Assembly (NCBI RefSeq): GCF_027531815.1
Contig: NZ_JAPZSK010000006.1
Location: 186,001 to 250,000 of the forward strand
Length of the DNA stretch: 64,000 nucleotides
Direction of reading: 5' to 3'
DNA from: Gemmatimonas sp.
Lineage (GTDB): Bacteria; Gemmatimonadota; Gemmatimonadetes; Gemmatimonadales; Gemmatimonadaceae
In this document: one piece after another, positions 31,551-61,827 of the stretch
How positions within the stretch are numbered: position 1 is the stretch's first letter
Layout: each line of letters begins with the position of its first letter
Translations under genes and position numbers: made by a program
Notes under the pieces: model-generated
What the model saw: only the letters and a program-made list of their open reading frames with translations
What the model was told of the DNA's origin: nothing
Database searches by the model: none

Positions 31551-31706
31551 GGGCTCAGAGATGACGGGACGTCCCGCGTAACGGGGTCGTTCCGACACTA
31601 GCCGCGGCTGGTGTGCCTGTCCACACCCTGCGCACGGGGCATACTATTCCCGTGTGCGGGTGCTAAACTGAAGCATCCCCGTTTTCAGAAACAAAGACCA
31701 CCTTTC

Positions 31707-55977: not shown

Positions 55978-56199
55978 ATGGTGTGGCTCATGGCTGCGTG
56001 CGTCGTGGTCGCGGTGGCGATCTGGCGCACGCGCCCCGCACAACGCGCAAAGGCGCTTTTCCCCCTTGGTCTGAGTGCCGTGATGGGTTCGATCGCCGCG
56101 AAGGACCGCGACGTGTGGCTGTCCATGGCGCTCAGCGTGCTCGCCATCGCGCTGTTCCTCACGTCGCTCTGGCAGCAACGCTCCGATCGGCGAGACTGA
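55978..56199 (+). CDS. Small two-helix membrane protein
   Basis: A 73-residue frame starting [16 protein letters not shown], with a second hydrophobic segment ([19 protein letters not shown]) after a basic loop. The ATG is 10 bases after the sortilin-like gene stop, so the two are probably co-transcribed. The family is not recognised. Its end overlaps the 3' end of ilvC by 41 bases, which is unusual and makes the last dozen residues less certain. Confidence 0.5.
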
Positions 56200-57271
56200 C
56201 GCCCGCCTGGCTCGCCACGCCCGTGTCGGGGCGCACGACCCTGGCGTCGAGAAATGGCATGAGCGCCCGAAGTCGCTCCCCCACCTGCTCGATGGGGTGA
56301 TCCGCATCGGTCAGGCGCGCCGCGGTGAAGTGCGGACGGCCAGCGTCGTTCTCGGCCACCCAGGTCTTCGCGAACTCGCCGCTGCGAATGTTGGCCAGCA
56401 GCTGGCGCATGGCCTCCTTGGTCTGCGCGGTCACGATGCGCGGGCCGGCAATGTAGTCGCCGTATTCGGCGGTATCACTCACGGAGTAGCGCATGTAGTT
56501 GAGCCCACCCTGGTACATCAGGTCCACGATGAGCTTGAGTTCGTGCAGGCACTCGAAGTAGGCCATTTCCGGGCGGTAACCGGCTTCCACGAGCGTTTCG
56601 AAGCCGGCCTTCACCAGCGCACTGACCCCGCCGCACAGCACCGCCTGCTCCCCGAACAGATCCGTTTCCGTCTCCTCGGCGAAGCTGGTTTCGATCACGC
56701 CAGCGCGGGTGCAGCCAATGGCCCAGGCGTAGGCGAGCGCATCCTCACGCGCTGCGCCACTGGCATCCTGCGCCACGGCAATGAGTCCCGGCACACCGCC
56801 CCCCTGGGTGAACACTTCACGCACCCGATGTCCCGGGCTCTTGGGCGCAATGAGGGCCACGTCCACCCCGTCGGGCGGGGCGATCAGGTTGAAGTGCACG
56901 TTGAAACCGTGCGCAAACCAGAGGGTCGTGCCGGGGCGCATGCTGGGCGCGATATCGCGATCGTAGATGCGCTGCTGTTCGGTGTCGGGCGCCAGCATCA
57001 TGATGGCATCGGCCTCCGCGGCGGCGGCGGCAACCGGCATCACGCGCAGTCCCGCCGCTTCGGCCGCCGCCCAGCTCCTGCTCCCCTCACGCAGCCCCAC
57101 GCGTACGTCCATGCCGCGGTCGGCCAGATTGCGTGCATGCGCATGCCCCTGGCTGCCATATCCGATGATGGCAATCCGGCGGCCCTCGAGTCGCTGCGGC
57201 TCAGCGTCACCGTCGTACAGCACCGGTGCGGCGAACATGGGGGTCGTATTGGGCGTGTTGGTCGGGGTCAT
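56159..57271 (-). CDS. ilvC: Ketol-acid reductoisomerase
   Basis: A 370-residue enzyme of the second step in valine/isoleucine synthesis. Cofactor motif [17 protein letters not shown]-type loop LREGSRSW, catalytic/metal sites [16 protein letters not shown] and [24 protein letters not shown] and SGEFAKTWV are intact. It is a class I short form with about 30 extra C-terminal residues. The ATG is one base after the ilvN stop; upstream extension is not protein-like. It is the last gene of the attenuator-controlled ilvB-ilvN-ilvC operon and its end overlaps the convergent small gene. Confidence 0.96.
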
Positions 57272-57272
57272 C

Positions 57273-57824
57273 TCAGGCAGCCTCCTCGGTGGGCGCGCCG
57301 TCGGCTTGCGCGCGGTAGTCGTTGGGTGCTTCAAGCACACGCGGCGTAGGGCCGCGCATCATGGCCAGTCGGCCGGTCCGCATGAGTTCCGCGATGCCGA
57401 AGCGACGCATCGCACTCACGAACTGCTCCACGCGCTCGGGGGCATCGGTGATCTCCACGATCACTTCGTCCGGCCCGAGATCCAGCACGCGGCCGCCGGC
57501 AGCCAGCGTTTCCTCGGCGATGTGCGTGAGTGCGGCACTCGTTGCCCGCACCTTGAGCAACGCCGTCTCCCGCACCACGGTGGGGGCGTCGGTGGCATCA
57601 GCCACACCGATCACCTCCACGAGGCGGTCGAGCTGCTTCACCACCTGTGTGGCCTCATCCACGCTCACCGCGAGGGTAAGCCGGGAAATGCCTGGCGTTT
57701 CGCTGCGCCCCACGGAGAGCGACACGATGTTGTAGCCGCGCCGCCGCAGCAGCGTCACGATGCGGTGCAGCACGCCGGGGCGGTCGTGCACGAGGGCGAT
57801 GAGGGTATGCACCGGTGCGGTCAT
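57273..57824 (-). CDS. ilvN: Acetolactate synthase small (regulatory) subunit
   Basis: A 183-residue regulatory subunit with N-terminal ACT domain ([28 protein letters not shown]) that binds valine, and a C-terminal region ([33 protein letters not shown]). It activates the catalytic subunit and confers feedback. The start overlaps the ilvB stop (ATGA). A longer frame shown upstream would lie inside ilvB and is not used. Confidence 0.94.
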
Positions 57825-59701
57825 GCCTGCTCCGTGGTGTGGGGGGTGCGCCACGCGGTCCGCGGCGTGACGCGCGAATCACCCATCGGCGACTCACGCC
57901 GCTGCCGTTCACGCAGCTGCTGGTCGTGGTGCGCTTCGTCGTGCACCATGTCGTGAATGGCGCGGCCGGCCGGCACCATGGGGAAGACGTTGGCTTCACG
58001 TTCCACGCGGAAGTCGATGAGCACCGGGCCGTGGTGTGCCCATGCCTCGCGTATCGCCGCTTCGGCATCGGCCACATCGTCCACGGTGATTGCGTGCCAC
58101 CCGTGCGCCTGCGCGAGCAGCGCGAAGTCGGGACCGGACAGCGGCGTTTCGCTGTAGCGGCGCCCCTCGAACAGCTGCTGCCACTGCCGCACCATGCCCA
58201 GATAGCCGTTGTTCACCACGGCCACCTTCACGTTGCCAAGCCCTTCCTGCCGAATGGTGGCCAGCTCGCAGGCGGTCATCTGGAAGCCGCCGTCGCCGCA
58301 GAACGCCCACACGGTGTGCGCGGGATCGGCGATGGCCGCCCCCAGCGCCGCCGGTACGGCGAACCCCATGGTGCCCGCACCGCCGCTGGTGATGTGCGAG
58401 CGGGCCCGCTGCCAATCGATGAGTTGGGCCGCCCACATCTGGTGCTGGCCCACATCGGTCACGACGCGCCAGTCTCGGCGCGTATCGGCCACGGCGTTGA
58501 ACGCGGCGAAGACGTCCTGCGGCATGAGCGGCGCGGTACGCTCGCTACGGCGGTAATGCTGCCGCGGCGCGAACTCCGCCTTGAGGGCGGCAATCTCCTC
58601 ACGCCACGGAGCGAACCGCTCGGGCTGCACGGGGATGCGCGGGGTGATGGTTTCCAGGACATCGCGGGCATCGCCGAGTATTCCGATGTGGGCGGTGACC
58701 AGCTTGCCGATCTCCGCGGCATCGATGTCCACATGAATCACTCGTGCGTGAGGTGCGAATGCCGACACCTTCCCGGTCACGCGATCGTCGAAGCGACTGC
58801 CGATGTTGAAGAGCACGTCGCACTGCTGAATAGCCCGGTTCACGTGCACCCAACCGTGCATGCCTGGCATGCCGAGCATGAGCGGGTGGTCGTGCGGCAT
58901 GGCACCGAGGCCGTGCAGGGTGGTGACCACCGGCATGCCGGTACGCTCCGCGAAGCGACGCAGGGCGTGACTGGCGTTCGCCTGCATCACCCCGTTGCCG
59001 GCCAGCACCAGCGGACGGCGTGCGTTCAGTAGCGCGCCCACGGCGGCCTCGATGGCCTGCACCGCGGCGAAATCCGCACGTCGACTTGCGGGGCGATAGC
59101 CGGGCAGGTCCATGCGCACATCCCAGTCGGGCACGCATCGCTCCTGCTGCGCATCCTTGGTGATGTCGATGAGCACCGGCCCCGGTCGGCCGGTCTGGGC
59201 TATGTGAAAGGCCTCGCGCACCACACGCGGAATGTCGGCCGCGCGCGTGACGAGGTAATTGTGCTTGGTAATGGGCACGGTGATGCCCGTGATGTCGGTC
59301 TCCTGAAACGCGTCGGTCCCCAGCAGGTGGCTGGGTACCTGCCCGGTGATGGCCACCAGGGGCGTCCCATCCATCCACGCGTCGGCGATGGGTGTCACGA
59401 GATTGGTGGCGCCGGGGCCGCTGGTGCCGATGCACACGCCCACGCGACCGGTGGCGCGGGCGTACCCCTCGGCGGCGTGACCGCCCCCCTGTTCGTGCCG
59501 CACCAGGACGTGCCGCAGCTGGCTGCGGTACTCCCACAGGGCGTGGTAGAACGGCATGATGCAGCCACCGGGAATGCCGAACAGGACGGCAACGCCCTCG
59601 CGAATGAGTGCCTCGCACAGGATCTGCGCGCCCGTGACCTCGCGCGCGGGCGAAGCACCGGGAGCACCATCGAATGGGGTGTTGGGCGGACCGTCGATCA
59701 T
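57821..59701 (-). CDS. ilvB: Acetolactate synthase large (catalytic) subunit
   Basis: A 626-residue thiamine-diphosphate enzyme that joins two pyruvates (or pyruvate and 2-oxobutyrate). Catalytic Glu in VRHEQGGGHAAEGYARATG, TSGPGATNLVTPIADAWMD, FAD/oxyanion and cofactor sites (AGNGVMQA, SRFDDRVTGK) and the diphosphate motif GDGGFQMTACELATI...VVNNGYLGMVRQWQ are intact. It starts 21 bases after the attenuator terminator and leads ilvN and ilvC. About 50 C-terminal residues (DEAHHDQQLRERQRRE) are extra and charged. The leader region should set expression by the supply of charged Val/Leu/Ile tRNAs. Confidence 0.97.
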   Translation of the reverse strand: MIDGPPNTPFDGAPGASPAREVTGAQILCEALIREGVAVLFGIPGGCIMPFYHALWEYRSQLRHVLVRHEQGGGHAAEGYARATGRVGVCIGTSGPGATNLVTPIADAWMDGTPLVAITGQVPSHLLGTDAFQETDITGITVPITKHNYLVTRAADIPRVVREAFHIAQTGRPGPVLIDITKDAQQERCVPDWDVRMDLPGYRPASRRADFAAVQAIEAAVGALLNARRPLVLAGNGVMQANASHALRRFAERTGMPVVTTLHGLGAMPHDHPLMLGMPGMHGWVHVNRAIQQCDVLFNIGSRFDDRVTGKVSAFAPHARVIHVDIDAAEIGKLVTAHIGILGDARDVLETITPRIPVQPERFAPWREEIAALKAEFAPRQHYRRSERTAPLMPQDVFAAFNAVADTRRDWRVVTDVGQHQMWAAQLIDWQRARSHITSGGAGTMGFAVPAALGAAIADPAHTVWAFCGDGGFQMTACELATIRQEGLGNVKVAVVNNGYLGMVRQWQQLFEGRRYSETPLSGPDFALLAQAHGWHAITVDDVADAEAAIREAWAHHGPVLIDFRVEREANVFPMVPAGRAIHDMVHDEAHHDQQLRERQRRESPMGDSRVTPRTAWRTPHTTEQA

Positions 59702-59722
59702 GGGAGCCTGGCTGAAAGGACA

Positions 59723-59756
59723 AGGGCCCCCTCCGACCGTGTGCGGAGGGGGCCCT
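59723..59756 (-). terminator. Attenuator terminator before ilvB
   Basis: On the minus strand a perfect 13-base-pair stem (59756-59744 with 59735-59723; AGGGCCCCCTCCG against its complement) is followed by TTGTCCTTT, ending 21 bases before the ilvB ATG. Its 5' arm can instead pair with GGGAGGGGCC from the hairpin just upstream (59788-59779 or so), giving an antiterminator. Confidence 0.8.
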
Positions 59757-59776
59757 CGAGTCCGTTTCAGACCAGG

Positions 59777-59799
59777 CCGGCCCCTCCCGCATGCGGGAG
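59777..59799 (-). promoter_or_regulatory. Pause/competitor hairpin and antiterminator arm of the ilv attenuator
   Basis: CTCCCGCATGCGGGAG (59784-59799) is a perfect palindrome directly extended on the minus strand by GGGCCGG. The 3' half plus this extension, GGGAGGGGCC, is complementary to GGCCCCCTCC of the terminator 5' arm with one bulged base. The two pairings exclude each other, the geometry of a 1:2/2:3/3:4 attenuator. Confidence 0.65.
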
Positions 59800-59816
59800 A
59801 GGCGGCGGTGTTCGCG

Positions 59817-59936
59817 TTACGCTATCGCGACCCGGCGGCCTTCCCGCGTGCCGATAAGCACGAGGACTACCGATACGCGTACTACCGTACCGATGGCCGG
59901 AACAAGGCTGACAAGACGCGAGAACGTGGGGAACAT
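59817..59936 (-). CDS. Leader peptide of the ilvB-ilvN-ilvC operon (ilvL-like)
   Basis: A 39-codon frame runs from ATG 59936 to TAA at 59817. Its centre reads VVRVSVVLVLIG (codons 18-29), and the part before it LVSLVPAIG: 16 of the 39 codons are for Val, Leu or Ile, like the ilvL leaders of enterobacteria. It ends 17 bases before the first hairpin of the attenuator. No clear ribosome binding site precedes the ATG, and a shorter start cannot be excluded. The frame in the opposite strand here is a shadow. Ribosome stalling at the Val/Leu/Ile codons is the expected control mechanism. Confidence 0.65.
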   Translation of the reverse strand: MFPTFSRLVSLVPAIGTVVRVSVVLVLIGTREGRRVAIA

Positions 59937-60032
59937 CAGAGTGGCGTGACCGAAAAAGCGCTGGGGGGGGCGAAGAAGGTGCCGCGCGAGTGACGAGCGG
60001 GATGAAGCGTGCGCAACAGGGATGGCGGCCAA

Positions 60033-60062
60033 AGCTTAGGCAATACCGGGCCAGAGGCGCAA
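60033..60062 (-). promoter_or_regulatory. Candidate promoter for the ilv leader transcript
   Basis: On the minus strand TTGCGC (60062-60057) and TAAGCT (60038-60033) are separated by 18 bases, about 90 bases upstream of the leader ATG. The hexamers match the sigma-70 consensus only partly (four and three of six), so this is a weak call. The promoter must otherwise lie in 59937-60117, or the transcript comes from ilvD. Confidence 0.3.
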
Positions 60063-60117
60063 GTGGCACACCGCCTTCCCTCCCTCGTTCCCCTGCCCCG
60101 AACCCGCTCGTCGCGGG

Positions 60118-61827
60118 TCACGCATCCGCGTACACATGCGTCTCGGCGCGCGCCCCCGGATGTGTCACCGCCCCGTAGCGCGCCGGTCCCACGGTCTGGG
60201 CGTAGCGCCAGATCGCACCGCTCTGGTAGTCGGTCTGTCGCGGCTCCCAGGTGGCGCGACGGGCAGCCAATTCATCGTCCGACAGGCGCACCGTGAGGGT
60301 GCCCACCGAGGCGTCGATGTCGATGATGTCGCCGTCGCGCAGCAGCGCCAACGGGCCACCCACCGCGGCTTCGGGCCCCACGTGCCCGACACAGAGGCCG
60401 CGGGTCGCGCCGCTGAAGCGTCCGTCGGTGATGAGCGCCACGTGCTCGCCCATGCCCTGCCCGTAAATCGCGCTGGTCGTGCTCAGCATCTCGCGCATCC
60501 CCGGTCCGCCGCGCGGCCCCTCGTAGCGAATCACCAGTACGTCGTTCTTCTCGTACTGGCGCTCCATGACGGCGGCAAAGCACGCCTCCTCGCTGTCGAA
60601 CACGCGCGCCGGCCCGCTGTGCACCAGATGAGCAAGCCCGGCCACCTTCACGATGGCGCCATCGGGGGCGAGGTTGCCGCGCAGCCCCACGAGCCCCCCC
60701 GTGGGAGAAAGGGCCTGCGACACCGGCATGACCACGCGCTGGTTACCGGGCACCACCACATCGGCCAGGTTTTCTGCGAGGGTCTTGCCGGTGACCGTGA
60801 TGCAGTCACCGTGCAGGAAGCCCCCGTCGAGCAGCGCCTTGAGCACGACCCCCGCGCCGCCGATATCGTGCACATCCTTCGCGAGATAGCGCCCGCCCGG
60901 CTTGAGGTCGGCAATGAGCGGCGTGCGCTTGAACACCTCGGCCACATCGAACAGGTCGAAGTCGATGCCGCATTCGTGGGCCATGGCGGGCAGATGCAGC
61001 GTGGCATTGGTGGAGCCGCCCGTGGCCGCCACCACCGCGGCGGCGTTCTCGAGTGAGCGTCGCGTCACGATCTGCCGTGGGCGCAGCCCGTCCCGCAGCA
61101 ACCGCATGACGGTCTCGCCGGCCGCCTCCGCGTAGCGATCGCGCGTCTCGTATGCTGCCGGCGGACTCGCCGAGCCGGGGAGCGCCAGGCCAATGGCTTC
61201 GCTGACGTACGCCATGCTGTTGGCGGTGTACTGGCCGCCGCAGGACCCGGCCCCCGGGCAGGCCACCTTCTCGAGTGCCGTCAACTCCTCGAGCGACATC
61301 GTGCCCGCCGCGTAGGCCCCCACCGCCTCGAACACGTCAAGCACCGTGACGTCGCGATCCCGATGCCGCCCCGGCAGAATGGAGCCGCCATAGAGGAACA
61401 CACTGGGCACGTCGAGTCGTACCATGGCCATCATCATGCCCGGGAGCGTCTTGTCGCACCCCGCAATGCCGACGAGCGCATCGTAGCAATGTCCGCGCAC
61501 GGTGAGTTCAATGCTGTCGGCAATCACGTCGCGGCTCACCAGCGACGCCTTCATGCCGGCATGCCCCATGGCGATGCCATCGGTCACCGTGATGGTGCAG
61601 AACTCGCGCGGCGTCCCGCCTCCCGCGATGACCCCACGCTTGGCCACTTCAGCCTGTCGCTTGAGCGCAATGTTGCATGGCGCGGCCTCGTTCCAGCTGG
61701 ACACGACGCCCACGAGGGGGCGCGCCACCTGCTCCTCGTTGAGCCCCATGGCATAGTAGAACGCCCGATGCGGTGCGCGCTCGGGACCTTGCATGGCATG
61801 ACGACTGGGACGCTTCGATTCGGACAT
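60118..61827 (-). CDS. ilvD: Dihydroxy-acid dehydratase
   Basis: A 569-residue iron-sulfur enzyme, the third step of valine/isoleucine synthesis. Cluster-binding Cys are visible in [16 protein letters not shown] and CPGAGSCGG; substrate/metal motifs [29 protein letters not shown] and [19 protein letters not shown] are intact. Length is normal. It lies upstream of the leader region, so it may be expressed apart from ilvBNC or read through. The DUF1707 gene ends 35 bases before its start. Confidence 0.97.

Follow-up and report, generated by a model that had tools for sequence, protein, structure and literature searches.

A predicted six-segment leader-peptide attenuator upstream of ilvBNC in Gemmatimonas and related Gemmatimonadaceae

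The leader of the ilvBNC genes of the soil bacterium Gemmatimonas sp. is very probably a ribosome-mediated transcription attenuator that senses charged valine, leucine, and isoleucine tRNAs. Computational analysis of the window (the whole 64-kb stretch of contig NZ_JAPZSK010000006.1 studied here) and of related genomes identified the parts of the element, their conservation and covariation, and a predicted three-phase switch. Six alternating RNA segments, A to F, are arranged as in the relay of the enterobacterial his attenuator, a likeness of architecture and not of homology, in which A:B, C:D, and E:F stand against B:C and D:E.

RESULTS

A Val/Leu/Ile-rich frame and two hairpins occupy the gap between ilvD and ilvB

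On the minus strand the gene order is ilvD, a gap with the leader, and then ilvB, ilvN, and ilvC, and all four genes score above the NCBIfam cut-offs (Table 1). The gap measures 416 nt, exactly 59702 to 60117, from the ilvD stop (60118) to the ilvB start (59701); a preliminary description made from the sequence alone had read it as a classical ilv attenuator. The parts that it listed are all present on the minus strand: a 39-codon frame rich in Val, Leu, and Ile (ATG, 38 codons, and TAA; MFPTFSRLVSLVPAIGTVVRVSVVLVLIGTREGRRVAIA), a palindromic hairpin (CTCCCGCATGCGGGAG) within 59779 to 59805, and a 13-bp terminator (5′ arm, 59744 to 59755; 3′ arm, 59724 to 59735) with the tail TTGTCCTTTC at 59714 to 59723. 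The terminator does stand shortly before ilvB, with 22 nt between its stem and the gene, and its T-tract is only moderately T-rich; a simple consensus scan for promoters and terminators flagged nothing, this terminator included.

In a six-frame, stop-to-stop search of the window, the leader was the sole stretch with 9 of 12 residues Val, Leu, or Ile in the last 60 codons, and it is followed by a hairpin of −33.6 kcal/mol with a T-rich tail. The whole leader RNA, folded as the preliminary description had proposed, reaches z = −6.65 against dinucleotide shuffles, and its predicted structures include A:B, C:D, and E:F. The frame is open further 5′ (TTG at 60032); a 71-codon version starting at this TTG was rejected, the TTG not being conserved in G005.

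Codon choice within the leaders is unusual. Leucine is encoded by CTT in 45% of cases in the leaders versus 4% in the window ilv genes and by CTG in 10% versus 48%; for valine, the values are 28% versus 4% for GTA and 18% versus 75% for GTG. The leaders compared were 24 from the family plus those of G012 and G055, and the reference was the window's own ilvB, ilvC, and ilvD, which is indicative for the other genomes. Judged from sequence, this enrichment of codons that are rare in the window's ilv genes is the pattern expected for regulatory codons. The preliminary description was right that no Shine-Dalgarno sequence precedes the leader, and the lack is common to the relatives. At several of these (G036, G069, G099, G159, G092, L168, L170, and L176), the leader start codon lies 6 to 9 nt past a predicted −10 box, which suggests that their leader transcripts are leaderless.

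Table 1. Features of the ilv locus and its leader, in window coordinates
Feature	Position	Strand	Basis
ilvD, dihydroxy-acid dehydratase, 5′ of the leader	60118..61827	−	TIGR00110, 669 bits
Putative promoter, TTGCGC, 18 nt, TAAGCT	60029..60062	−	Inferred from sequence only; weak consensus match; identical in G005
Leader peptide frame, 39 codons, 16 Val/Leu/Ile	59817..59936	−	Sequence; homologues in relatives
Segment A region, early leader frame; would pair with the B region without a ribosome	59899..59930	−	Predicted fold; masking A releases B
Control codons GTA GTA CGC GTA TCG GTA GTC CTC GTG CTT ATC (VVRVSVVLVLI)	59853..59885	−	Sequence; rare-codon enrichment
Segment B, GCACGCGGGAAGG, within the leader frame; predicted to pair with C	59839..59851	−	Folding, swaps, helix scan, compensatory changes
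Segment C, CCGCCTCTCCCGC, 5′ arm of first hairpin	59793..59805	−	Folding, helix scan, compensatory changes
Segment D, GCGGGAGGGGCC, 3′ arm of first hairpin; predicted antiterminator with E	59779..59790	−	Folding, swaps, helix scan, compensatory changes
Segment E, GGGCCCCCTCCG, 5′ arm of terminator	59744..59755	−	Folding, swaps, compensatory changes
Segment F, CGGAGGGGGCCC, and T-rich tail, 3′ arm of terminator	59714..59735	−	Folding, swaps, compensatory changes
Outer stem around the terminator (59766 to 59778 with 59705 to 59716)	59705..59778	−	Predicted; function putative
ilvB, acetolactate synthase large subunit	57821..59701	−	TIGR00118, 697 bits
ilvN, acetolactate synthase small subunit	57273..57842	−	TIGR00119, 146 bits
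ilvC, ketol-acid reductoisomerase	56159..57340	−	TIGR00465, 428 bits

The frame and the alternative stems are conserved in the Gemmatimonadaceae

Five further Gemmatimonadaceae genomes (G005, G021, G032, G110, and G061) carry a homologous two-hairpin leader before ilvB. The ilvB of G005 is 94% identical to that of the window, that of G021 80%, and that of G032, a member of another genus, 74%. Leader peptides of the direct relatives keep the V/L/I run with exchanges among V, L, and I, so that, for example, TVVLVSVVRVLVGTREG in G005 corresponds to TVVRVSVVLVLIGTREG in the window. In the other ilv-positive Gemmatimonadaceae, ilvD and ilvB are contiguous, and a V/L/I-rich leader stands before ilvD of ilvDBNC in 18 of 18 cases examined, with two hairpins in 17 and one hairpin in G036.

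Synthesis of branched-chain amino acids has a patchy distribution in the Gemmatimonadaceae: of 148 genomes of the family, 28 have an ilvB-like gene, and within the genus such a gene was found in only 4 of 30 (none of the three single-contig genomes among them). In one genus member (G012, locus L007), ilvB is preceded by a T-tailed terminator and a distinct leader with a Leu run (MSSTTLLLLTQPGAPVGALGVRVCSMGMGSERAP) that could not be aligned with the other leaders.

Pairing partners have evolved together. In a swap test, segments paired better with their own partner than with that of another genus for the leader frame with C (p = 1.6e-4), C:D (p = 1.1e-3), D:E (p = 7e-5), and E:F (p = 4e-5), while the pairs that the model does not need, frame:E and C:F, were weaker. 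When 18 sequences were aligned with plain MAFFT and scanned for conserved helices without supervision, C:D, E:F, B:C, and both halves of D:E came out among the best helices. Compensatory changes, in counts that are inflated by shared ancestry, occur in 4 of 5 pairs of B:C, where pairing drops from 88% to at most 71% when the partners are slid, and in 4 of 15 pairs of the terminating form (C:D and E:F), where it drops from 91% to at most 70%. The ability of D to pair with the terminator 5′ arm, already proposed in the preliminary description, was confirmed in the sequence and is backed by swaps and compensatory changes. A:B is predicted by folding, and B:C, C:D, D:E, and E:F are backed also by covariation and swaps.

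A V/L/I-rich leader thus lies shortly before the operon with a terminator ahead of its first gene, and the relatives keep the frame, the V/L/I control codons, and, through compensatory changes, the stems. This conservation supports the initial reading of the gap as an ilv attenuator, which loss of leader and stems in the relatives would have spoken against.

Ribosome position is predicted to set a six-segment relay

We propose that RNA polymerase would transcribe the short leader frame with a ribosome behind it. When charged tRNAs are scarce, the ribosome would stall at the V/L/I codons and mask segment A; B would then be free to pair with C, D would be freed to pair with E, the E:F terminator would not form, and ilvBNC would be transcribed. 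When charged tRNAs are plentiful, the ribosome would reach the stop codon and mask B, C:D and then E:F would form, and transcription would end. Without translation, A:B, C:D, and E:F would leave the switch off by default. Stalling, termination, antitermination, and the amino acid response are what we infer for the living cell.

The element therefore remains a leader-peptide attenuator, as first described, but one with a six-segment relay in place of the simple three-hairpin scheme of trp and leu. That simpler scheme was rejected, since C is out of direct reach of masking from the control codons and B is required. The distance of about 50 bases between the control codons and the first hairpin, noted initially as a weak point, is real but no longer a weakness, because the overlooked in-frame segment B, a late part of the leader frame that resembles D, would capture the 5′ arm of the first hairpin.

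For a masking scan, the RNA was folded as it stands before F is made, and everything 5′ of a moving ribosome edge was masked. The window sequence formed C:D without a ribosome and B:C with D:E when the leading edge lay at nt 18 to 90 of the frame; C:D returned past about nt 96 and persisted until C itself was masked. If about 15 nt are masked ahead of the A-site, as assumed here, these edges correspond to stalls at codons 2 to 26, most of the control codons included. In most leaders C starts 8 to 16 nt past the stop codon, and a ribosome at the stop codon would therefore leave most of C free.

Across 24 leaders, the antiterminator share averaged 0.13 with no ribosome and 0.58 to 0.77, over four leading-edge positions, with a stalled one; a ribosome at the stop codon gave 0.39. 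Shuffling the codons lowered the stalled share from 0.62 in the real leaders to 0.25 (mean of two stall positions). The stalled share was at least 0.5 in 16 of the 24, and no switching appeared in this simple model for G032, G073, G081, G107, G108, and a few more. By computation, ribosome position thus selects between antiterminator and terminator forms that exclude each other, though not in every relative.

Alternative readings of the gap

Three other explanations were weighed. The hairpin could be a plain terminator of ilvD, the V/L/I run a chance open frame, and the ilvB promoter further down. The element does sit 3′ of ilvD in the window, but this reading, to which we give very little credence, fails because an equivalent leader stands before ilvD, with no preceding ilv gene, in 18 relatives; moreover, conservation extends to the V/L/I content of the frame and to the pairings B:C and D:E, and about 22 nt between terminator and ilvB are too few for a promoter. 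Equally improbable in our estimate is control of ilvB by an RNA that has no ribosome sensor (a riboswitch, a T-box, or a protein-bound attenuator), with the frame left untranslated. The missing Shine-Dalgarno sequence and the several stems would suit such an RNA, and other RNA sensors serve some bacterial ilv operons. Against it stand the conserved V/L/I codons and reading frame, the enriched rare isocodons, and invariant columns that fall in the switching stems and form no conserved aptamer-like core. Rfam searches likewise returned no family at gathering score, whether T-box riboswitch or leader family (His, Leu, ilvH, and others), and nothing relevant at permissive thresholds (ilvH, 14.5 bits, E = 6).

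It is also unlikely, if less so, that leader translation acts mainly on the initiation of ilvB translation, with an extended terminator stem hiding the start, stalling opening it, and termination playing a minor part. Each of the six ilvB-type leaders is predicted to have an outer stem around the terminator; this stem differs in sequence from lineage to lineage and reaches 6 to 10 nt before ilvB. The weak T-tract also favors this reading. On the other side, T-tracts are better, and the gene lies further away, in many of the 18 ilvD-type leaders; moreover, no stem covaries more strongly than E:F, which is what a terminator should show. We therefore retain transcription attenuation as the preferred reading and regard the outer stem, which reaches the ilvB initiation region, as possibly a second, translational layer of control.

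Other leaders in the source genome and in the order

In the source genome (G000:C11, L201), a His-rich frame (MQSLRTTHHHAHHSHGPTGRGASCVMG; THHHAHHSHG) precedes hisG at 31623 and is followed by a hairpin (CGGCCCGTCCCCTCCGGACGGGCC) with TTTTTTG about 50 nt before hisG. Its start codon lies a few nucleotides past a promoter-like site, TTGACG-17-TACCGT. This leader is likely a His attenuator, and its presence with a terminator in the same genome supports attenuation as a general habit of the organism.

Neither leuA (TIGR00973) nor an HMGL-like synthase (PF00682) was found in the whole source genome, and the organism therefore seems unable to make leucine despite its ilvDBNC genes and the Leu codons in the leader. 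Given a genome without leuA or an HMGL-family synthase, sensing of leucine by the leader would not be end-product control.

Of 20 genomes from a second family of the order, 18 have a V/L/I-rich leader with a terminator upstream, typically just before leuA, which precedes ilvB there (leuA identified by family search at three loci only). A leader scan of 40 loci gave 24 forward matches versus 2 on the reverse strand. In the leuA type, the 3′ part of the frame pairs directly with the terminator 5′ arm in the predicted fold when the ribosome is held early, a four-segment logic. Families f4 to f7 and f11 gave isolated matches only, with those in G197, G203, and G352 credible; the matches in f11 and G373 are, as far as seen, not at branched-chain amino acid operons.

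DISCUSSION

The his attenuator of E. coli and Salmonella (Rfam His_leader) has segments A to F, and a ribosome stalled over A lets B:C and D:E replace A:B, C:D, and E:F. The Gemmatimonas leader has the same six alternating segments and relay logic; whereas the his attenuator senses histidine, it carries Val, Leu, and Ile codons, precedes ilv genes, and matches no Rfam leader family. The ilvGMEDA and ilvBN attenuators of E. coli have a multivalent V/L/I leader peptide before ilv genes and a T-tailed terminator, features found here as well. However, the Gemmatimonas leader has another peptide and another RNA, it lacks a Shine-Dalgarno sequence, and its control codons lie about 50 nt before the first hairpin past the frame, a distance that B is predicted to bridge.

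Leaders of this composition before ilvB are also known in Actinobacteria (PMC11857589, PMC10272879, PMC1262725, PMC13236596). The ilvBNC attenuators of C. glutamicum and M. tuberculosis have a V/L/I leader, CUU and GUA control codons, and a terminator (PMC11857589, PMC10272879, PMC13236596), and they share these features and the ilvB-N-C order with Gemmatimonas. The ilvBNC transcript of C. glutamicum has a leaderless start, as is suggested for several Gemmatimonas relatives. In these two species, one antiterminator competes directly with the terminator, whereas in Gemmatimonas an extra hairpin would relay the signal, and no sequence similarity was seen. A superficially similar ilvB leader of Streptomyces did not respond to codon substitution (PMC1262725), a result that counts against the attenuator reading of the Gemmatimonas leader.

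According to a 2010 survey, which added a case from the Firmicutes, leader-peptide systems had been known only from Proteobacteria and Actinobacteria (PMC2965389). In the literature that could be searched, to which few subscription journals belong, no paper was found to describe such attenuation for Gemmatimonadota. The mechanism is classical; its occurrence in this phylum and the variant architecture are new as far as the searched literature shows.

The leuA-type leaders of other Gemmatimonadota families share with Gemmatimonas a V/L/I leader and a terminator before the first branched-chain amino acid gene, but they have a single terminator hairpin where the ilv leader has a relay with an additional one. 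Given the four-segment logic of the leuA type, the relay of the Gemmatimonadaceae looks like the insertion of one extra hairpin. We suggest tentatively, and with somewhat less than even confidence, that branched-chain amino acid genes are widely subject to attenuation in the order, where this control is probably ancestral and takes two forms, a four-segment leuA type and a six-segment ilvD/ilvB type, and that in the ilvB type an outer stem that occludes the ribosome-binding site would let one stall control both transcription and translation. If this is true, the stepwise evolution of a relay attenuator could be followed.

Such leaders stand almost throughout two families of the Gemmatimonadota, a phylum in which little is known of regulation. 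Their presence indicates that amino acid operons are controlled there by the coupling of transcription and translation, and with two architectures next to each other, the origin of multi-segment attenuators becomes testable.
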